From positions 1 to 48,450 of the forward strand of contig JAKAGZ010000016.1 of assembly GCA_021815365.1 (NCBI GenBank): a stretch of 48,450 nt of DNA. Reading direction: 5' to 3'. The notes under the pieces are model-generated. The model was given only the letters and a program-made list of their open reading frames with translations. It had not been told where the DNA came from and did not search any database. A program made the translations under genes and the position numbers. How positions within the stretch are numbered: position 1 is the stretch's first letter; every line of letters begins with the position of its first letter. The stretch comes from Bacteroidota bacterium. GTDB lineage: Bacteria > Bacteroidota > Ignavibacteria > Ignavibacteriales > Ignavibacteriaceae. Shown here piece after piece: positions 20,759 to 29,988 of this stretch.

Positions 20759-20798
20759 TTAGCTTTCAACCTCTTCGAGTACCGGTAATTCAATTTTT
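20759..20798 (-). pseudogene. Displaced copy of the kamA 3' end
   Basis: Read on the minus strand, this 40-base piece encodes KIELPVLEEVES followed by TAA. The intact kamA ends KIELPILEEVES-TAA at 21988-22027. The two copies lie in the same orientation and match at 36 of 40 bases. Of the four affected codons, three changes are synonymous and one is Ile to Val. Similarity stops abruptly upstream of the lysine codon. The copies flank the 20892-21926 gene like attachment-site direct repeats, or like the scar of a recombination that brought in a diverged kamA end. Confidence 0.75.
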
Positions 20799-20891: not shown

Positions 20892-21926
20892 ATGAAAAAA
20901 TTATTACTCCTTTTATTATATAATTTTTTAACAATATTTTTATTTGCACAAGACTCAGTTAACTCGATATATGATCTTAGTGTTGGTACGGTAAGATATT
21001 ATTCAAGCTGTGGCGCGTTAGGAATTCCTTGTGCTGGTAACGGTTCATATACTTTAGCTATTGAAAAAGTGATGAATAAAACTTTAATCAGTTCAAAAAT
21101 ATATTCTGTGATTTTATTTGAAAAATATATACATAGCGAACCGGATAATACTAATAAATATTTTACAGATACATTATATCAGATAATTGAGAATAAAAAA
21201 TTATATCAGCATACAACAATAGGAGATTCTTTAATAGCTGATTTCAGCTTTTCAAAGGGTGATTCTTTATATCGGTTTTTCAATTATACAAGTGGAATGG
21301 GGGGTTATAAAGCTTTACCGAAGGTTATTATCTATGATACTACTAAGCAATTTCTGGATGGTAAAAATTATCGATTTCTTTGGAGTGATGATACTACTCA
21401 ATACAGTCATACTCCTAATCTTCAATCTTTCTTAGATTCAATTTTAATCCCAAGTCTAAGCGATTCACTATGGCTTCTTCCTATTGGCAGCAATTCTGTT
21501 TATTCGGTTGTGCATCCCTTCTATTTTGTTGAAAGTTTAGGAATCATAAGAAATTATTATACACACTTAAATTTACCGATGGTTGGCATAATGACAGCTG
21601 ACGGGAAATTATTTGGAGAAAAGTTTTTAATTACTAAGATAAAAGGAGAAAAAACGAGTCCGGAATTATTTTATCTATATCAGAACTTTCCAAATCCCTT
21701 CAACCCGACTACAAAAATAAAATATCAATTACCCAAAGACGGATTTGTTACATTAAAGGTTTATGATATACTTGGCAGAGAAGTAAAAACTCTCGTTAAT
21801 GAATACCAGAGCAAAGGAAGATATGATGTTACTTTCAACGCAGAAAATCTTGCAAGCGGAATTTATATTTATCAGCTAATAGCTAACGACTTTATAGCAA
21901 ACAAAAAATTAGTCCTCTTACGCTAA
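20892..21926 (+). CDS. T9SS-secreted protein of unknown function
   Basis: This 344-residue exported protein has a signal peptide (MKKLLLLLLYNFLTIFLFAQ). The unknown mature part (about 21-255) contains two cysteines in SSCGALGIPCAGNGSY, many Tyr/Ser/Asp residues and short beta-like repeats. A textbook type A sorting domain follows (about 258-344): LYQNFPNPFNPTTKIKYQLP, VYDILGREVKTLV and LASGIYIYQL. The protein should pass the outer membrane through T9SS and be attached or released. The gene lies alone between two direct repeats made of the kamA 3' end, so it may have been acquired separately from its neighbours. Sorting domain is certain; role is unknown. Confidence 0.88.
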   Translation: MKKLLLLLLYNFLTIFLFAQDSVNSIYDLSVGTVRYYSSCGALGIPCAGNGSYTLAIEKVMNKTLISSKIYSVILFEKYIHSEPDNTNKYFTDTLYQIIENKKLYQHTTIGDSLIADFSFSKGDSLYRFFNYTSGMGGYKALPKVIIYDTTKQFLDGKNYRFLWSDDTTQYSHTPNLQSFLDSILIPSLSDSLWLLPIGSNSVYSVVHPFYFVESLGIIRNYYTHLNLPMVGIMTADGKLFGEKFLITKIKGEKTSPELFYLYQNFPNPFNPTTKIKYQLPKDGFVTLKVYDILGREVKTLVNEYQSKGRYDVTFNAENLASGIYIYQLIANDFIANKKLVLLR

Positions 21927-21958
21927 GGCTTCGGACAGGTTTTGAAAAGTAAAAATTA

Positions 21959-21984
21959 AAAAGGCGTCCCAATGGACGCCTTTT
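21959..21984. terminator. Bidirectional intrinsic terminator
   Basis: A perfect stem GGCGTCC/GGACGCC (21963-21969, 21974-21980) has a 4-base loop, flanked by AAAA on the left and TTTT on the right. It lies 33 bases after the stop of the plus-strand T9SS gene and four bases before the stop of minus-strand kamA. It therefore fits a shared terminator for these convergent genes. Confidence 0.88.
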
Positions 21985-21987
21985 CGT

Positions 21988-23148
21988 TTAGCTCTCAACT
22001 TCTTCGAGTATTGGTAATTCAATTTTTGAATAGTCAATCTCCTTGATCTTTGATTTACTATTTTTACCGGAAGTTTTCCCGTTCTTCTTTGTACCGGGAT
22101 TATTCTTATCCTTATAATTTTTATAAACATAAACTTTGTTCTTAAAATTGCGAAGGATAATTTTATCTTCATCGTGGTGAATAACGTATTCCGGCAATAT
22201 TGGAATTTTCCCTCCGCCGCCGGGTGCATCAATAACAAAGTGAGGAATAGCCAGACCGCTTGTGTGTCCCCTGAGATTTTCAATAATTTCAATCCCCGTT
22301 TCAATTGAAGTGCGGAAATGATTGGCGCCTTTTGTTTCATCAGCCATATACATATAGTATGGGCGCACCCTGATCTTCAGCAGTTTCTGCAATAATTCTT
22401 TGACAACTGCGGGGTCATCATTTACGCCTTTCATCAATACCATCTGGTTACCAACCGGCACGCCTGCATTTGCAAGCATCTCGCAGGCACGGCTGCTTTC
22501 AGGGGTGATCTCCCACGGGTGATTGAAATGTGTGTTTACATAAATGGGGTGATATTTTTTTATCATCTCGCAAAGTTCGGGAGTAATTCTGTGCGGAAGA
22601 ACGCACGGCATTTTTGTTCCCAGCCTGATTATCTCAATGTGAGGGATTGCACGCAGCCGCTGCAGGATTTTTTCAAGCATGGCATCAGTAAGCATTAAAG
22701 GATCGCCGCCCGAAAGAATAACATCACGCACTTCAGTATGCTGTTCGAGATACTGGAAAGCGCTTTCGAGCCCCTTCATCGAAATTTTTTCATAATCACC
22801 GACTTTTCTTTTTCTCGTACAGAAACGGCAGTAAAGCCCGCACTGACTCGTGACCAAAAAAAGCGCTCTGTCCGGGTAACGATGCGTAATGTTTGGAACG
22901 GGGCTCATCGAGTCTTCCATCAGAGGATCTTCTTCTCCATCGAAGTCGTCCAACTCCGCTTTATCAGGTACGCATTGAAGCCAGATAGGGTCCCCCGGAT
23001 ATCTGATCAAACTGAAATAGTAGGGGTTTATCCTTGCCTGAAAAAATTCGTCAAGATCTTCAGCAACTTTCCGATCTATATTAAATTTTTCAACAAGTTG
23101 ATCGACAGTGTGTATGCTGTCTCGTATCATTTGCTGCCATAGTTCCAT
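21988..23148 (-). CDS. kamA: Lysine 2,3-aminomutase (radical SAM, PLP)
   Basis: This enzyme converts L-alpha-lysine to beta-lysine. Its 386 residues contain the radical-SAM cluster motif with Cys103, Cys107 and Cys110 (SQCGLYCRFCTRKR), SGGDPLML at 146-153, and the PLP-binding lysine Lys314 in DAPGGGGK. Asp270 (MADET) and Asp307 occupy the spacing of the two aspartates that hold the lysine side-chain amine in clostridial KAM, favouring lysine over glutamate. It is shorter than the clostridial enzyme and has a Lys-rich tail (about 345-372). It is the last gene of a four-gene operon with GNAT and two ATP-grasp proteins; TGAGG precedes its ATG. The final 12 codons are duplicated at 20759-20798. 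Confidence 0.93.
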   Translation of the reverse strand: MELWQQMIRDSIHTVDQLVEKFNIDRKVAEDLDEFFQARINPYYFSLIRYPGDPIWLQCVPDKAELDDFDGEEDPLMEDSMSPVPNITHRYPDRALFLVTSQCGLYCRFCTRKRKVGDYEKISMKGLESAFQYLEQHTEVRDVILSGGDPLMLTDAMLEKILQRLRAIPHIEIIRLGTKMPCVLPHRITPELCEMIKKYHPIYVNTHFNHPWEITPESSRACEMLANAGVPVGNQMVLMKGVNDDPAVVKELLQKLLKIRVRPYYMYMADETKGANHFRTSIETGIEIIENLRGHTSGLAIPHFVIDAPGGGGKIPILPEYVIHHDEDKIILRNFKNKVYVYKNYKDKNNPGTKKNGKTSGKNSKSKIKEIDYSKIELPILEEVES

Positions 23149-23171
23149 GACTGAGCCTCAGATTGTTGTTT

Positions 23172-23645
23172 TTACTTATAAAAATATTTTCCAAAAACCA
23201 GCAGGCTGTCGCCCACTTTATAGAAATTATTTATTTCTGCGATTATCGAATAATTATTTCTCAGATAAAAATTTCTTGTTTTTGCATAACTATCTTTGGA
23301 AGATGTTTCAGCAAGTATCCATCTTCCGTTATTTTTTTTAACAAAATCTTCTGCATGATCCAGTAAACTTTTTCCGATACCTTTTTTCCCGGAATCCGGG
23401 TCAGAAACAATCCAATACAGATCATAAACAGCATCAGTCAGAGGTCGTTTACCGGTACAGTGATAACCCAGAATTTTTCCTTCTTCCTCGTAAACAAAAA
23501 TGTTATAATCAGTCTGAACCGGAACAGTAACTGCTATGTTCACGAGTTCCATAGCAACATCAATCTCTTCTTTGTTAAAGATCGGGACCTTCCTTAAAAT
23601 ATTTTCAATCTCGATTGCATCAGCTTGCTTTATTTTTCGTATCAT
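23172..23645 (-). CDS. GNAT family N-acetyltransferase
   Basis: This GNAT-fold acetyltransferase has 157 residues, about the length of a single GNAT domain. YDLYWIVSDPDSGKKGIGKSLLDHAED contains the beta4 strand and the acetyl-CoA pyrophosphate loop (KKGIGKS). NFYLRNNYSIIAEINNFY is the C-terminal motif B region. It overlaps the end of the ATP-grasp gene by 26 bases and is followed by kamA after 23 bases, so its substrate probably belongs to this pathway. Beta-lysine is a natural guess, as the AblA/AblB pair makes N-acetyl-beta-lysine. However, this protein is much shorter than AblB and I cannot show orthology. An amino group of a ligated product is another option. Confidence 0.88.
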   Translation of the reverse strand: MIRKIKQADAIEIENILRKVPIFNKEEIDVAMELVNIAVTVPVQTDYNIFVYEEEGKILGYHCTGKRPLTDAVYDLYWIVSDPDSGKKGIGKSLLDHAEDFVKKNNGRWILAETSSKDSYAKTRNFYLRNNYSIIAEINNFYKVGDSLLVFGKYFYK

Positions 23646-24681
23646 TTTTCTTTCTTGTTAAAGCAAAATTTGCAATTGAATACAGCAGTTCAGGATAAGA
23701 AATTCCGGCTGCCGAAGCTGCCCGTGCGAAACCTGAATCAGTAGATATATCCGGGTTTGGATTTACCTCAATTACGTAAGGGGTTCCATCTTTAGCCAGG
23801 CGGATATCAACTCTTGCGTAATCTCTGCAGTTCAAAGCGCTGAAAGCGGCGATCGCTGCGTCTTCAATATTTTTTTGTATATCTTTTTCCAGCAGAGCAG
23901 GGCAGCTTGGCTTTGTATTCTGGTAATAAACACTATCCTCTATCCACTTGCTGTCGTACGTAATAATTCTTGGTAAGTCCTCCGGAAGCCCATGGAAAAG
24001 TATTTCAGAAACAGGGAGTATTTTATCTCCCAGTATCGCAATATTAAGCTCGCGCCCGTCAATATATTCTTCAGCGATTACTTCCTGCCTGTAAGTTTCA
24101 AATAAAAATTTTAATTGTTTTTTTAAGTCAGAAAAATTATTAACAACTGAAAATTCAGATATTCCGATGCTTGCATCTTCTGTCATTAATTTCAGGATTA
24201 CAGGAAATTTCAGTTTAAAGTTTTTATCTGAAATTTTTCCATCGGGTTTTATGATCTGTGATTTTGGGGTGGGGATGTCAAAGGACCGTAAAATATTTTT
24301 TGTTCTTTCTTTATTCAGACAGTTTCCGAGAGTTATCGGGGTGTTGCCGGTGAACTCGTAACCGAGCAGTTCAAAAATTCCTGCAATACAAAATTCATAG
24401 GCAGCTACACCTTCGATTGACTCGACAAAATTAAAAATAACATCGGGCGATTTACGGTTTAATTCAGCAATTGTTTTTTCAACATTACCATTTGCGGCAA
24501 ATGTATCAACATTCGAATAATACAAGCTCAGGCTGTCAACTATTTTATTTAGATCCCTTTCGAAAGCATTTTCGGAAAGATCATTCAACCGGCTATTGTG
24601 CTCTGCCGGTTTACCATTGTAGACCGGGAAGATGCTAACAGGAGAGTTGTAGCAGATCAATATTTTCGCATCTGTTTTCAT
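23620..24681 (-). CDS. ATP-grasp ligase, D-Ala-D-Ala ligase-like (second copy)
   Basis: This ATP-grasp enzyme of 353 residues would join a carboxylate to an amine through an acyl phosphate. FVESIEGVAAYE and the TGNTPITLGNCLNKERTKNIL segment are typical of D-alanine-D-alanine-ligase-like proteins. FPVILKLMTEDASIGIS is the ATP-grasp phosphate-binding region. EEYIDGRELNIAILG, YARVDIRLAKDGTPYVIEVNPNPDIS and the Asn/Glu metal ligands (EVNPNP) complete the active site. It is unlikely to be the cell-wall Ddl: it is paired with a paralogue and sits in a kamA operon. Its ATG overlaps the upstream paralogue by 4 bases and its 3' end overlaps GNAT. Substrates are unknown. Confidence 0.88.
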   Translation of the reverse strand: MKTDAKILICYNSPVSIFPVYNGKPAEHNSRLNDLSENAFERDLNKIVDSLSLYYSNVDTFAANGNVEKTIAELNRKSPDVIFNFVESIEGVAAYEFCIAGIFELLGYEFTGNTPITLGNCLNKERTKNILRSFDIPTPKSQIIKPDGKISDKNFKLKFPVILKLMTEDASIGISEFSVVNNFSDLKKQLKFLFETYRQEVIAEEYIDGRELNIAILGDKILPVSEILFHGLPEDLPRIITYDSKWIEDSVYYQNTKPSCPALLEKDIQKNIEDAAIAAFSALNCRDYARVDIRLAKDGTPYVIEVNPNPDISTDSGFARAASAAGISYPELLYSIANFALTRKKNDTKNKAS

Positions 24682-25760
24682 AAAAGCTTATGTCTTTTAG
24701 CTGCAACGAATAGAACCATGTTTATCATTTCGTTGTAACTTAAGCCATGTGTTCTGGCTGCTTTGGGATAACAAGAATTATCCTGAGGATCAGGCAGTAT
24801 CCCGGGCAGAGGATTTATCTCAATAATGTTTGGGATTCCTTTTGAATCAAGTCTTACGTCAATTCTGCCCCAGTCTTTGCAGCGCAGAGTATTATATGCT
24901 TTAAGAACTGTCTCTTTAATTAATATCTCTGTATTTTTATCAAGCTTTGCAGGACAGGTGAAAACATCCAGCGGGTCTTCCCTTGTGTCCAATATCCATT
25001 TAGCTTCGTATGAATATATTGGAACGAAATCATCTGGAAATTCTTTATAGTTTATTTCTACGATTGGCAGCGCTTCGGCTTCGTCTCCGTTTCCTAATAC
25101 AGCCACCGTGAATTCTCTGCCCGGAAGAAATTCTTCAATAAGAGCAGGCTGAGCATATTCTGATAATATTCTTTCAACCTCGCTTCTTAGTTCATTTTCA
25201 TTTCGTACGAAAGATGAAGAGAAAATTCCTTTGCTCGAGCCTTCCGAAATCGGCTTTACGATCAGCGGGTATACCAGGTTATGTCTCTTTATCTTTTCAA
25301 TCGTATCTGCGAAAAGGAATTTTGCAGTAGGAATTTTATAATAAGATAAAATTTCTTTCGTACGTGCTTTATCAAGGCAGGTTGCGAGCGTTAACGGGTC
25401 AGAACCAGTATAAGGTATCTGAAGCAAATCAAGCAAAGCAGGTATCTGCGCCTCTCGGCTTATTCCGCTGAGTCCTTCTGCAACATTAAAGACAATATCC
25501 GGCTTTGCTTCTTTTAATTTTTCAAAAGCAGATTCGTTTGCTTCGACTAAAATAACATCGTGATAAGTTTCAAGTGCTGCTTTAAGTGCAGTAATAGTTT
25601 CCCACGTATCCCACTCAGCGTAAGTGTCGACTGCTTTTTCTGATTGATGTTGAGTGTTTTTCAGATTTGGGGGTAGTTCTTCGAGGAAAGCCTGCCTACC
25701 TGTCAGGCAGGTTTCACTTTCTGGCTTCACATTGAAAGTCAGAGCGACTTTCAATCGCAC
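24678..25760 (-). CDS. ATP-grasp ligase, D-Ala-D-Ala ligase-like (first copy)
   Basis: This is the first gene of the operon, about 360 residues. NVAEGLSGISREAQIPALLDLLQIPYTGSDPLTLATCLDKARTKEIL, YPLIVKPISEGSSKGI, EEFLPGREFTVAVLG and GRIDVRLDSKGIPNIIEINPLPG place it in the D-Ala-D-Ala-ligase-like ATP-grasp family. The start is uncertain. The annotated GTG (25760) has no Shine-Dalgarno next to it, but AAGGAG lies about 30 bases upstream, five bases before an in-frame ATT that would add LSPLFN. Codons 2-9 form a perfect 10-bp hairpin. Residues about 17-24 (ETCLTGRQ) are encoded by a G+C-rich palindrome, within an N-terminal stretch (about 16-45) not expected in the family. Confidence 0.86.
   Translation of the reverse strand: MRLKVALTFNVKPESETCLTGRQAFLEELPPNLKNTQHQSEKAVDTYAEWDTWETITALKAALETYHDVILVEANESAFEKLKEAKPDIVFNVAEGLSGISREAQIPALLDLLQIPYTGSDPLTLATCLDKARTKEILSYYKIPTAKFLFADTIEKIKRHNLVYPLIVKPISEGSSKGIFSSSFVRNENELRSEVERILSEYAQPALIEEFLPGREFTVAVLGNGDEAEALPIVEINYKEFPDDFVPIYSYEAKWILDTREDPLDVFTCPAKLDKNTEILIKETVLKAYNTLRCKDWGRIDVRLDSKGIPNIIEINPLPGILPDPQDNSCYPKAARTHGLSYNEMINMVLFVAAKRHKLL
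25691..25711. repeat. G+C-rich palindrome inside coding sequence
   Basis: Perfect 7-base arms CCTGCCT and AGGCAGG have a 7-base loop, inside the first ATP-grasp gene and in frame (TCLTGRQA). Its reverse complement contains GGTAGGCAGGC, also found at 4537-4547 in a non-coding repeat block. It therefore appears to be one member of an interspersed repeat family. Confidence 0.72.
25731..25755. promoter_or_regulatory. Perfect hairpin at the operon's translation start
   Basis: The 10-base arms ATTGAAAGTC (25731-25740) and GACTTTCAAT (25746-25755) pair perfectly around a 5-base loop. The hairpin covers codons 2-9 of the first ATP-grasp gene, starting three bases after the GTG. A structure there would impede initiation unless opened, so translational control is possible. 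It could also be chance within a conserved RLKVALTFN coding stretch. Confidence 0.5.
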
Positions 25761-26064
25761 ATTAAACAGGGGGGATAAAATAAAATCTCCTTATTATTTT
25801 TTTTGACAAATATAACTAATAAAAATTTTAAGTCAACGACTCTTAAAAAGTTTTCAGAAAAATTTTTCCCCGGATAGTTTTTAAAATTCCTGGTAAAAAT
25901 TTTTTGAAAGAACATGAAAAACATTAGTTATAATTTTTTCTCACCTCAAATTTATAACTAAAATTATAATTAGCAAATAAAAATCTTTAAAATTTTTTGG
26001 GAGAGAAGGCGTCTGTGGCTGGGTGGAAGCGTGCATGTTTACGAAGTGCTGGAGAAAATTTTTT
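25761..26064. promoter_or_regulatory. Intergenic region upstream of the ATP-grasp/kamA operon
   Basis: No gene is seen in these 304 bases. On the minus strand TATATTTG (25807-25814), with TTG about 19 bases further upstream (25834-25836), matches the Bacteroidota-type TTTG/TAnnTTTG promoter and points at the operon start about 47 bases away. At 25924-25961 there is a perfect 10-base inverted repeat (TTAGTTATAA/TTATAACTAA, 18-base loop). A degenerate third copy follows at about 25960-25973. This could be an operator or a structure after recG. The stretch 26008-26045 is more G+C-rich, with no assigned role. Confidence 0.45.
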
Positions 26065-28275
26065 TCATGCGATTTTTGCATACTGAAGATTTTTATAATA
26101 GTGTTTTAAAAGATTTTCTTTTAAAACAAAATTATTTTCTGATCGAAGATGGGGATCTCCCTCAATAACTGTGAACGCAGATTGTTTCGCTTCGGAGATT
26201 ACAGCAGAGTCATTAATTATATCGGCGAACTTAAGCTCAGGGAGACCGCTTTGCTTTGTCCCGAATATATCTCCAGGTCCGCGCAGCTTTAGATCTGTCT
26301 CGGCAATTTTAAAACCATCGTTATACTTCACCATTGTCTGCAGTCTTACCGCAGATTTATATTTCTCAATCTGTGCTGAAGATAAATATTCAAGATCAAA
26401 CCCCAGGTTTTCATTTGCCGCCGCATAATTATCCTTTGTTACAAGAATGCAGTAAGCCTGCCTGCTGCCTCTTCCTATTCTCCCGCGAAGCTGGTGAAGC
26501 TGTGAAAGCCCAAACCTGTGAGCGTCATTAATAAGAATAATATTTGCGTCCGGAATATCTATCCCAACTTCTATTACAGTTGTGCTGATCAGCACATCAA
26601 ATTTTTTTGAAAGGAACATCAGCATTATTTCCTCTTTTTCCTGCCAGCTCATACGACCGTGAATAAGCCCTAATTTCAGGCTCTTTAAGTGTGTTTCCTG
26701 AAGTTCCCTGAAGTATGTTTCGGCGGCTTTCAGTTCCATTTTTTCAGATTCTTCCACAAGGGGATAAACGATAAAAGATTGATAGCCCTCCTTATTCTTA
26801 TCGGCAATGAATTTATATATAGCGGGAAGTTTTTTTTCACCGCGCAGCAGAGTTTTGACGGGTTTCCTGTTTTTTGGCATTTCATCAATTACAGACAGAT
26901 CCAGATCTGCATAAACTGTCATTGATAAAGTTCTCGGTATCGGTGTTGCACTCATCACTAATACATCCGGCACTTTCCCTTTGCTTTGAAGCTTAGCTCT
27001 CTGGGCAACTCCGAATCTATGCTGTTCGTCAACTATTGCAAGTCCCAGATTTTTAAATTTCACCTTTTCCTCGAACAAGGCGTGTGTGCCGATAATAATA
27101 TCAGCTTCCTGCAGCTCGATGTTCTGAAGACTTTTTTCTCTCTCGGATTTTTTCTGACCTCCAAGCAGCAGGCTGACCTTTATGATTCTGTCCTTATGAA
27201 TTTCATATAATTTTTTCATCAGGTGCGAAATATTTTTTGCATGCTGGTCGGCAAGTATTTCTGTAGGCGCCATCAAAGCAGCCTGGCAGCCGTTATCAAC
27301 CGCTATCAACATTGCGATTAATGCCACGATGGTTTTTCCGCAGCCAACGTCTCCCTGCAAAAGACGGTTCATCGGGAAGGGAGATTCCATATCTTTTTTA
27401 ATTTCACTCAAAACTTTTAGCTGCGATCCGGTCAGTTCAAATGGAAGGGTCTTCAGGAAGTCGTGCACAAGATGAGTCCTGACCTTCATTGAATTTCCCC
27501 TCTGCCTTGTCTGGTAGTTATGTTTTCTTAAAGCGACAAGCAGTTCGAGGTAAAATAATTCTTCAAACTTAAATCTTCTCCGTGCCGAAATGAATTTATC
27601 ACGGCTTTCAGGGTAATGAAAATTTTTTACTGCTTCTTTCAGCGGGAGTAATTTGTGTTCTTCAAGAATATTTTTGGGAAGGGTATCCTCCAGCAAGTCC
27701 GCATAATTATCTACTGCATAACTTATGATCCTTCTCAGGCTGAAATCGCCGATGCTTGTAGTTTTTAATTCTTTCGGGATCCTGTAAAACGGAATGATCT
27801 TTCCTGTGTTCAGAAAACTTTTTGTTTCATCTTCTGATATTCTGTCAAAGTCAGGATGTGTGAATTGCAGGTTCCCATATTTTGATATTGCAGGTTTTCC
27901 TGAAACGGCAAAAGTATCGCCTTCGTGAAAAACATTCAGAAAATATTTTATTCCCTGGAACCAGACACACTCAAAAAATCCTGTTGCATCTCTGAACTGG
28001 ACTTTAAGGATTTCCCTTTTTCCGAACCTTCTTTTTTCAACATCCTCAACTTTTGCGATGACAGTTACTTCACCATCGTAGCCGTTTAAAACATACCCGT
28101 AAGCTTTGGCGGAAGAGAGCGTGGTTGTTCTGTCGAGATGACGGGAAGGAAAGTAAAACAGAATATCCCTGATAGTTCCGATCCCGATTTTTTTGAATGA
28201 CTCTGCACGCTTCGGACCAACTGACTTTATATACTGGATTGAGCGTGAAAGAATATTTTCATTGGCATTATTCAT
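26065..28275 (-). CDS. recG: ATP-dependent DNA helicase RecG
   Basis: This helicase remodels branched DNA at stalled replication forks and Holliday junctions. The 736 residues show the N-terminal wedge/OB domain (about 60-160, with VTVIAKVEDVEKRRFG and FFECVWFQG). Helicase domain 1 has Walker A GDVGCGKT (near 310), APTEILADQH and the DEQHRFGVAQR box (near 413). Domain 2 has SATPIPRTLSMT, HGRMSWQEKEEIM, STTVIEVGIDIPDA and QLRGRIGRGSRQAYC. Length is slightly above the usual 690 or so. It ends about 300 bases before the ATP-grasp operon and starts 75 bases after the aspartic protease. Assignment is certain. Confidence 0.97.
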   Translation of the reverse strand: MNNANENILSRSIQYIKSVGPKRAESFKKIGIGTIRDILFYFPSRHLDRTTTLSSAKAYGYVLNGYDGEVTVIAKVEDVEKRRFGKREILKVQFRDATGFFECVWFQGIKYFLNVFHEGDTFAVSGKPAISKYGNLQFTHPDFDRISEDETKSFLNTGKIIPFYRIPKELKTTSIGDFSLRRIISYAVDNYADLLEDTLPKNILEEHKLLPLKEAVKNFHYPESRDKFISARRRFKFEELFYLELLVALRKHNYQTRQRGNSMKVRTHLVHDFLKTLPFELTGSQLKVLSEIKKDMESPFPMNRLLQGDVGCGKTIVALIAMLIAVDNGCQAALMAPTEILADQHAKNISHLMKKLYEIHKDRIIKVSLLLGGQKKSEREKSLQNIELQEADIIIGTHALFEEKVKFKNLGLAIVDEQHRFGVAQRAKLQSKGKVPDVLVMSATPIPRTLSMTVYADLDLSVIDEMPKNRKPVKTLLRGEKKLPAIYKFIADKNKEGYQSFIVYPLVEESEKMELKAAETYFRELQETHLKSLKLGLIHGRMSWQEKEEIMLMFLSKKFDVLISTTVIEVGIDIPDANIILINDAHRFGLSQLHQLRGRIGRGSRQAYCILVTKDNYAAANENLGFDLEYLSSAQIEKYKSAVRLQTMVKYNDGFKIAETDLKLRGPGDIFGTKQSGLPELKFADIINDSAVISEAKQSAFTVIEGDPHLRSENNFVLKENLLKHYYKNLQYAKIA

Positions 28276-28332
28276 CGAACAGAAAAATACTGCAAGACAG
28301 AGGCAATTACAATAAGTTTAAGTTTTCAGCCA

Positions 28333-28384
28333 GAGGCTTGAGCCTGAGGCTCATCCGCCTTTGGAGGAGATCCGCCTCGGCGGA
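28333..28384. repeat. Palindromic G+C-rich repeat cluster at a gene end
   Basis: Consecutive palindromes are visible: AGGCT/AGCCT near 28335, GAGCC/GGCTC near 28341-28353, a direct repeat of TCCGCC (28354-28359, 28371-28376), and TCCGCC/GGCGGA (28371-28376, 28379-28384). The cluster contains the stop codon (28351-28353) and the last 11 codons of the aspartic protease gene, and lies in a G+C-poor neighbourhood. Confidence 0.7.
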
Positions 28385-28794
28385 AAGTTTAAGGGAGGAC
28401 GGATATTAAGATTTTCTGGAATTAATTTATCCCGGCTTGTTTTCGCCAGCATTAATTTCATCGGCTTCAGCTCCCTGCTAAAAGGGTTTAAAACAAGTCC
28501 CAGTGCTTCAAGCGTTAAAGCGCCGAGCAAAGCTTCGTCATTTCCTTCGCCAAAAATTACCGGCGCAGCGCCGCCTTTACCCTGAAATTCAAAATAAGCA
28601 TCGTCAATATTTCTTATTATACTTGTTCCGTCTGCAAGTGTAAATTCCTCTTTCCTATGAGGTTTAATGCCAATCTTTTTAAGTTGCTTTGCAGGAATTA
28701 AACTATATACCGCCCCGGAATCAACAAGAAAATTAATTTCGATAAAATCTTTTTTACGATAATCCTGTTTCACTTTTAATCTGGCGTAGGTCAT
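28351..28794 (-). CDS. Retropepsin-like (clan AA) aspartic protease family protein
   Basis: This small 147-residue protein has one pepsin-half fold. The catalytic motif is LVDSGAVYSLIP with Asp25-Ser26-Gly27, where Ser replaces the usual Thr (DTG). LLGALTLEALGL gives the second hydrophobic-glycine motif and LADGTSI the flap region. Bacterial proteins of this type act as dimers; their substrates are mostly unknown and some are linked to toxin-antitoxin or stress loci. The final residues (about 137-147, FPPRRISSKGG) are encoded by a palindromic repeat cluster, so the original end was probably near the KLMLAK segment (about 113-118) or soon after it. The start is the ATG at 28794. Family fit is good; activity is untested. 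Confidence 0.82.
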   Translation of the reverse strand: MTYARLKVKQDYRKKDFIEINFLVDSGAVYSLIPAKQLKKIGIKPHRKEEFTLADGTSIIRNIDDAYFEFQGKGGAAPVIFGEGNDEALLGALTLEALGLVLNPFSRELKPMKLMLAKTSRDKLIPENLNIRPPLNFPPRRISSKGG

Positions 28795-28992
28795 TCCTAT
28801 TAAATATTCTTCGTAATTTTTTAACTCTGATTATTTTTCAGCATAATATAAAACAAAGTCAAACTATAGTACGACATAAACCAATACACTCATTTCATCT
28901 TACGGACACATAGTTTTTGTTAAAGTAATAGTCTGTACATGCTGCCAGGTTGTTCCTGAATAAAATAGACGAAGTTGTAAAGAGGCTGCTTT

Positions 28993-29988
28993 TCATTCCA
29001 TCTTCATATCTCTCGTCATCAGGTCGGTGGTCGCTTTGACGGGGTCTTTATCTTCAAAAAGGATCCTGTAAACTTCGGTAGTGATGGGTACTTCAACTTT
29101 GTGCTTTTTTGCGAGCTGCGATGCTGACCGGCTTGTTTCAACTCCTTCAGCAACCATCTGCATTGATTTTAAAACTGCTTCTAATTTTTTTCCAGAACCA
29201 ACCTGCTCGCCAACAAACCTGTTCCTGCTGTGGCGGCTCATACAGGTAACGATGAGATCACCCATTCCCGATAAGCCTGCAAAAGTTTCGGGCTGTGCGC
29301 CGAGTGCAACCCCCAGCCTTGAAATTTCTGCGATGCCGCGTGTCATAATAGCCGCTTTTGTATTATCTCCAAACTTAGCTCCGTCGACAATTCCTGCACC
29401 GATTGCAATCACATTCTTAAATGCGCCGCCCAGCTCAACACCTAAAATATCTGTTGAAGCATAGACCCTGAAATATGAAGTAACAAATGCTGCCTGAATT
29501 GATTTAGAAGTTTCGACATTTTTTGATGCAGTAACCACGGCTGTCGGAATTCTTCTGCTGACTTCTTCTGCATGGCTCGGTCCCGACAGCACCCCTATCT
29601 GGTCCGGGCTTAAAGAAGGGATTTCATCTCTCAGCATTTGGGACATTGTCATCAGCGATTTGTTCTCGATTCCTTTTGCAACACTGACTAGTATGGAATT
29701 TTTAATATTTGCCGGCACAATATCTTTTACCACTCCCCTGAGAAACTGTGAAGGAACCGCAAGCACGATCATATTTTTATTTGTGCTCGATTCTTCGAGA
29801 TCGTGTGTTATAAGAATTTTTTTCGGAATTTTTATTCCGGGCAGGTAACGTTCGTTTATCCTGTTTTTATCAAGTACTTTTGAATAGTTTTTTTTATATT
29901 CCCAGAGGGTTACATCGTGTCCGTTATAATGAAGCAGGATGGCGAGGGTCGTTCCCCAGCCGCCTGCGCCTAAAACAGAAATTTTCAT
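28993..29988 (-). CDS. gpsA: Glycerol-3-phosphate dehydrogenase [NAD(P)+]
   Basis: This enzyme reduces dihydroxyacetone phosphate to sn-glycerol-3-phosphate for phospholipid synthesis in the cytoplasm. Its 331 residues start with the Rossmann motif VLGAGGWGTTLA. They contain LAVPSQFLR, SVAKGIE, LSGPSHAEEV, the catalytic GAFKNVIAIGAGIVDG lysine region and FAGLSGMGDLIVTC, all diagnostic for GpsA. Its ATG overlaps the stop of plsY by one base (TAATG). This couples it to the acyltransferase that uses its product. Certain. Confidence 0.97.
   Translation of the reverse strand: MKISVLGAGGWGTTLAILLHYNGHDVTLWEYKKNYSKVLDKNRINERYLPGIKIPKKILITHDLEESSTNKNMIVLAVPSQFLRGVVKDIVPANIKNSILVSVAKGIENKSLMTMSQMLRDEIPSLSPDQIGVLSGPSHAEEVSRRIPTAVVTASKNVETSKSIQAAFVTSYFRVYASTDILGVELGGAFKNVIAIGAGIVDGAKFGDNTKAAIMTRGIAEISRLGVALGAQPETFAGLSGMGDLIVTCMSRHSRNRFVGEQVGSGKKLEAVLKSMQMVAEGVETSRSASQLAKKHKVEVPITTEVYRILFEDKDPVKATTDLMTRDMKME

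Follow-up and report, generated by a model that had tools for sequence, protein, structure and literature searches.

Which small molecule might be made by an operon that joins a lysine 2,3-aminomutase to an acetyltransferase and two ATP-grasp ligases? The question arises from a 48,450-nucleotide stretch of DNA (the window; contig JAKAGZ010000016.1 of assembly GCA_021815365.1, a Bacteroidota bacterium of the Ignavibacteriaceae), in which four adjacent minus-strand genes encode, in order of transcription, the ATP-grasp ligases AGA and AGB, a GNAT-family acetyltransferase (GNAT) and the radical-SAM enzyme KamA (Table 1). A first-pass annotation had proposed that beta-lysine made by KamA is ligated twice, giving a small peptide or compatible solute. 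After comparison with related genomes we lean, somewhat beyond an even judgement, towards a dedicated, mostly vertically inherited pathway that builds beta-lysine into a small N-acetylated peptide or amide. Each of the four kinds of enzyme is familiar, but as a constant set they suggest a small molecule for which no name was found in the literature searched. A description of the four-gene operon was not found there either, and term searches of PMC8939145 and of the Melioribacter roseus genome paper (the latter for 'aminomutase' and 'lysine') gave no match.

Conservation and co-occurrence of the four genes

The annotated arrangement, with overlaps of 4 and 26 bases and one gap of 23 bases, was recovered exactly from the open reading frames (ORFs), and the proposed search of public loci for the same synteny found it to recur. 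A collection scan with AGA yielded 360 loci, of which the best 80 were kept: AGA-AGB-GNAT-KamA lie in this order on one strand in 72 (including L112, where GNAT is a partial match only), and the remaining eight are cut by a contig end. Titles of these best 80 loci are mostly Ignavibacteria, Melioribacter, Kryptonia, Stygiobacter and unclassified Bacteroidetes, with one Chlorobiaceae; among the operon carriers are a record titled Stygiobacter electus strain 09-Me (L083) and assemblies titled Melioribacter roseus (L094, L096). Overlaps of -4 and -26/-23 bases were found again in most measurable loci, while AGA and AGB of the Kryptonia loci are separated by a 45-47-base gap. Among same-class KamA matches, 20 of 21 loci beyond the order were examined (the weak match G233 was left out); 18 have all four genes and in two the contig ends before or inside the upstream genes.

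Ligase homologues occurring mostly without kamA had been named beforehand as telling against a joint pathway, and this pattern was not seen in the class genomes sampled. In a class-wide sample of 245 phylogenetically related genomes (AGA and KamA matches at E 1e-62) AGA was found in 162 and KamA in 174, with both in 160, neither in 69 and just one in 16; the 160 are counts of presence, adjacency being seen in the fetched loci, and because the genomes are related a Fisher value for this co-occurrence is no true probability. All 16 single-gene genomes were examined, and consist of five contig cuts and 11 with a distant KamA. In two AGA-only genomes the contig stops inside AGB, and in three KamA-only genomes an operon-type KamA lies near the contig start, two of these keeping GNAT, or AGB and GNAT, upstream. 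In G460, a genome with both genes but on different contigs, one contig ends with AGA-AGB and another with GNAT-KamA, which resembles an operon split between contigs. Within a set of 59 close relatives AGA is present in 51, and 48 of those 51 have a full KamA; in the other three (G010, G036 and G045) the operon is at a contig end. Operon-type KamA is absent from all eight relatives lacking AGA. Pairwise distances of the four genes are correlated (r 0.70-0.86, 45 operons). G014 and G046 carry two copies each of the operon AGA and KamA, unlike the other relatives searched.

The eleven distant KamAs (best E 1e-72 to 1e-120) belong to nine abl loci, one abl-like locus (G381, where the contig ends after the start of a symporter-like gene) and one five-gene relative of the operon (G472, described below). 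In the nine class genomes with abl loci (L253-L256, L259, L261-L264) AblB shares a contig with the distant KamA, usually (7/9) with a sodium:solute-symporter-like gene, possibly a solute transporter, in between. Two of these loci were scored with NCBIfam models (AblB 325 and 338 bits, AblA 785 and 769 bits, all above cut-offs), and AblB in the other seven was called by similarity to the L256 protein, not by NCBIfam cut-off. The search for AblB covered 58 relatives and the fetched loci, rather than the whole class. None of the 245 class genomes has two KamAs (E <= 1e-62), and operon KamA and abl KamA thus do not coexist in those sampled.

Active site of KamA

Pfam identifies LAM_C and Radical_SAM domains in KamA, which matches PDB 2a5h at E 4.7e-121. 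All six residues listed by the first-pass annotation (Cys103, Cys107, Cys110, Lys314, Asp270 and Asp307) are at the positions it gave and, with R112, are present in 87/87 operon KamAs. We take them to be the CxxxCxxC radical-SAM motif, the pyridoxal phosphate lysine, and the substrate aspartates and arginine. This invariance supports a lysine-type enzyme, and conversion of L-lysine to beta-lysine by KamA is strongly indicated, as judged from its sequence. In the tree the operon KamAs form one group (support 93/98, just below the tool's 95 mark, with a long-branch warning).

Outside the class, KamA matches were found in 57 genomes and 20 loci were examined, phyla beyond Bacteroidota being represented via plasmid records only. 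In six of these 20 loci a single Ddl-like ligase lies near a KamA of a separate clade; in L209-L211 and L213-L215, from other Bacteroidota, it adjoins this KamA or lies within 0.8 kb of it. The lysine-site Asp (D270) is Gln in 8/8 KamAs of the clade, which probably uses another amino acid and maybe forms a different beta-amino acid. Convergent pairing of KamA with ATP-grasp ligases, considered as proof of beta-lysine ligation, is weakened by this substitution in the paired clade. On Thioflavicoccus mobilis plasmid pTHIMO01 (L173:6691-12172) KamA adjoins a Ddl-like ligase and annotated 2,3-diaminopropionate / diaminobutyrate synthesis genes, a possible further beta-amino-acid peptide cluster.

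Fold and substrate residues of the ligases

Both ligases match PF07478 (Dala_Dala_lig_C; AGA 130.9 bits, AGB 113.5 bits), with no match to the Ddl N-terminal domain PF01820 at E 0.001. Their NCBIfam Ddl scores are 198 (AGA) and 158 bits (AGB) against a cut-off of 243, and none of the 25 NCBIfam models listed for either protein reaches its cut-off. AlphaFold models (mean predicted local distance difference test 84 for AGA, with residues 15-48 of low confidence, and 90 for AGB) match Ddl structures 8evy (AGA; Z 31.6, 2.4 Å over 293 residues) and 8evv (AGB; Z 33.4, 2.3 Å over 307 residues). All fold-search rows listed for the two ligases are Ddl/Van-type. The fold search was rejected as a guide to substrate, since such rows tell the fold only and other families may match beyond those listed.

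Residues were mapped by alignment to E. coli DdlB, with the genome's own Ddl as control. An alignment of AGA from the 80 loci used 37 of them, a start-codon rule having dropped the others. The Mg/ATP residues are invariant (AGA D301, E314, N316; AGB D292, E305, N307). E49, S175, R299, D301, E314 and N316 of AGA are present in 56/56 sequences together with W255, which is Tyr in the genome's Ddl; Trp occupies this position, which we take to be Y216 in E. coli DdlB numbering, in 56/56 AGA and 91/91 AGB (W246). In AGB, Ala170 replaces the Ser of the substrate triad (90/91) and Asp311 replaces Gly (91/91). Retention of the ATP/Mg residues combined with altered Ddl substrate residues points to active ligases with non-Ddl substrates. 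Each also has an extra Glu (AGA E95, AGB E87; His there in the genome's Ddl in the AGA alignment). The added acidic residues would suit a diamino acid, but are only suggestive, because AGC, a paralogue without an adjacent KamA, shares them.

AGC, a third ligase of AGB type (L230:1128-3149, on contig C88 of the same genome), nests among the AGB proteins in a tree in which the AGA clade has support of 93/83, below the 95 mark and with a long-branch warning. In 13/13 loci examined (L230, L232-L243; Pfam for L230) AGC is divergent beside a 278-residue C39-peptidase-like protein, with which it possibly constitutes a second peptide-forming system.

The cell's true Ddl, with both Ddl domains, is encoded elsewhere in the genome, and this, together with the sub-threshold Ddl scores and the missing Tyr, bears out the earlier view that AGA and AGB are not that enzyme. 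Their predicted Ddl fold would suit a cell-envelope route, in which beta-lysine or its acetylated form is attached to peptidoglycan or another envelope precursor, and there is precedent for ATP-grasp ligases that make wall cross-links (PMC2922099, from the part of the source consulted). However, no wall-synthesis gene was recognised by eye among recurring neighbours at 41 loci, the operon is missing from 8/59 relatives, which would be odd for a wall component, and the housekeeping Ddl is located away from it, all of which makes envelope attachment distinctly unlikely.

GNAT and the other known uses of beta-lysine

GNAT matches PF13508 (39.6 bits), and its closest solved relative is PDB 2r7h (E 3.6e-24 over residues 3-151), labelled 'putative D-alanine N-acetyltransferase of GNAT family' by its depositors. 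The earlier remark that this short GNAT is not AblB-like holds: at 157 amino acids (aa) it has no match to the AblB model TIGR03827 at E 0.001, none of 58 genomes (the present one included) has AblB above cut-off, and the present genome has no AblB match. These results bear on the simplest alternative, that KamA and GNAT make plain N-epsilon-acetyl-beta-lysine while the ligases are merely co-transcribed. KamA plus an acetyltransferase is indeed the logic of abl (PMC1224877, in the portion available), and among the 11 genomes of the class whose KamA is distant and in which AGA has no match, nine have that KamA with AblB. Besides the lack of AblB, this alternative, which we consider improbable, has to contend with the co-occurrence of AGA and KamA in 160/245 genomes and with the five-gene variant, which again joins two ligases, KamA and GNAT.

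Since the KamA family includes EpmB and the fermentative lysine 2,3-aminomutase, beta-lysylation of protein or of elongation factor P (EF-P), or lysine fermentation, were also weighed, and appear extremely improbable. KamA scores 234 bits with the EpmB model (cut-off 369), and the best EpmA (TIGR00462) match in the genome is a frame of 507 aa, the size of a lysyl-tRNA synthetase, with 256 bits (cut-off 287); with neither above cut-off, EF-P beta-lysylation was rejected. Fermentation was rejected as the genome has no lysine 5,6-aminomutase (KamD, PF09043), an enzyme above cut-off in 3/58 genomes.

The five-gene relative in G472 (L257:4257-9798), a genome with no AGA match at E 1e-62, consists of KamA, two ligases, a GNAT-deacetylase fusion and a GNAT. 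In the fusion (579 aa) a GNAT is joined to a domain of the histone-deacetylase family that most resembles acetylpolyamine amidohydrolases. The section of PMC2922099 consulted discusses other systems in which the side-chain amine of lysine is masked ahead of ligation. The deacetylase family PF00850 is absent from the genome carrying the window, where the acetyl would therefore stay unless another enzyme removes it. A deacetylase partner elsewhere in the genome was rejected on this absence; PF00850 is found in 15/58 genomes, operon-bearing and operon-free alike.

A candidate route to an N-acetylated beta-lysine peptide

With two ligases and a GNAT as the fixed partners of KamA, and the tested beta-lysine consumers absent, we interpret the operon as making an N-acetylated peptide or amide of beta-lysine. 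KamA would convert L-lysine to beta-lysine, and AGA and AGB would activate carboxylates as acyl phosphates and make two amide bonds, with beta-lysine the putative donor or acceptor in at least one. GNAT may acetylate one amine, whether to mask that of the side chain, so that ligation can go only one way, or to cap the product, which is predicted to be a di- or tripeptide that contains beta-lysine, bears an N-acetyl group and is retained in the cell. The likeliest role, as compatible solute or stress metabolite in place of the N-acetyl-beta-lysine (abl) of sister lineages, is still a guess, more probably wrong than right. The wider proposal of a class-wide primary pathway, with an N-acetylated beta-lysyl peptide as the compatible solute standing in for abl and the deacetylase of the sister version making acetyl a removable protecting group, is unlikely.

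A secreted specialised metabolite, such as a negamycin-like beta-lysine amide acting as antibiotic or metallophore, would have precedent in the negamycin cluster, where beta-lysine enzymes occur alongside ATP-grasp ligases (PMC12154649, as far as the consulted part goes), and possibly in the Thioflavicoccus plasmid described above. The block has no constant exporter or regulator, though: recG recurs near the operon in 28/41 loci and every other neighbour family in <=14, those recurring neighbours recognised by eye being housekeeping (gpsA-, plsY-like), and ABC-transporter-like families occur nearby in 5/41 and regulator-like families in 8/41. Most names in this count were assigned by eye, and its ORF filter missed KamA in L183, L190 and L195. 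AGA is moreover present in 51/59 relatives, and gene distances and the tree suggest mostly vertical descent. Transporters and regulators near only a few loci, and four genes diverging together, fit an inherited cytoplasmic metabolite better than a mobile antibiotic cluster, and secretion of the product is accordingly judged rather improbable.

Several observations weigh against the beta-lysine peptide or its suggested role. With the AblA model TIGR03820 KamA scores 469.8 bits, below the cut-off of 525.4, which none of 59 relatives exceeds. Abl-type KamAs have Cys at column 245 and a C-x3-C-x2-C tail (7/7, with four further tails likewise), cysteines that presumably hold a structural zinc in the clostridial enzyme; operon KamAs have none at column 245 and none in the C-terminal tail (0/87). 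The D270Q clade is also paired with Ddl-like ligases, so that a KamA-family/ATP-grasp pairing alone is no proof of lysine, and AGC, the paralogue nearest to AGB, which shares NPNPD and the Trp, adjoins a C39-peptidase-like protein instead of KamA, so that the AGB substrate need not be beta-lysine. In the G472 variant, with its deacetylase-like domain, the acetyl group might serve for protection instead of as the final cap. Neither AGA nor KamA is found in 69/245 class genomes, and an osmolyte role is hinted at only by the alternation with abl loci. Returning to the peptide or amide pathway, to which we still incline, most sampled relatives (AGA in 51/59) appear able to make the small molecule, and with so strict a linkage and so short an operon, metabolomics and heterologous expression could test the proposal directly.

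Signals and repeats around the operon

Table 1 Features of the operon and its borders (window coordinates).
Feature	Position	Strand	Evidence
AGA, first gene; D-Ala-D-Ala-ligase-fold ATP-grasp ligase, 360 aa, GTG start	24678-25760	-	Pfam, predicted fold
AGB, second, paralogous ATP-grasp ligase, 353 aa, NPNPD signature	23620-24681	-	Pfam, predicted fold
GNAT acetyltransferase, 157 aa	23172-23645	-	Pfam, PDB 2r7h relative
KamA, radical-SAM lysine 2,3-aminomutase, 386 aa	21988-23148	-	Pfam, PDB 2a5h match
Intrinsic-terminator-like hairpin closing the operon	21958-21985	-	12-pair stem, T-rich tail; consensus match only
recG-AGA intergenic region, presumed promoter region	25761-26064	-	Sequence

The hairpin (12 pairs, 21985-21958) lies directly 3' of kamA. 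The intergenic region upstream of AGA contains a single promoter-like match (10/12, at 25836-25809), promoter-like counts not being above those of shuffles. An Rfam scan of 21000-29000 (E up to 0.5) gave three matches, all below gathering and none in 25761-26064, and a lysine riboswitch or other RNA regulator was rejected on these sub-threshold matches.

A 40-base, 90% copy of the kamA 3' end is found at 20759-20798, 1.2 kb past kamA, as though a duplicated kamA tail had been brought in with the sorting-domain gene (20892-21926). The palindrome CCTGCCT...AGGCAGG (25691-25711) lies inside the low-confidence N-terminal insert of AGA, and occurs once in the window and in none of 100 shuffles.

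Comparison with known systems

Like the abl operon (AblA and AblB; osmolyte N-epsilon-acetyl-beta-lysine), the four-gene operon combines a KamA-family enzyme with a lysine-type active site and an acetyltransferase. It differs in having two ATP-grasp ligases and a GNAT of another subfamily, in lacking the symporter-like gene found in 7/9 class abl loci, and in its KamA, which has neither the column-245 Cys nor the tail cysteines of the abl type. Negamycin-type clusters, so far as they are covered in the material consulted, likewise group beta-lysine formation with an amide-forming ATP-grasp enzyme, but belong to an actinomycete antibiotic cluster with N-N bond formation, for which the four-gene block has no gene. 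AGA and AGB match the Ddl fold (PF07478/PF01820) over nearly the whole length and keep its ATP/Mg residues, whereas they lack PF01820, have Trp for Tyr in both and, in AGB, Asp for Gly. N-acetylglutaminylglutamine amide is made by GNAT and ATP-grasp enzymology. This synthesis follows a similar logic, acetylation plus ligation giving a capped dipeptide solute, although with glutamine rather than beta-lysine and without an aminomutase; the compound is named as a solute in the available portion of PMC1224877. If the operon does make a beta-lysine peptide solute, it would be a further pathway alongside those of abl and the acetylated glutamine dipeptide.

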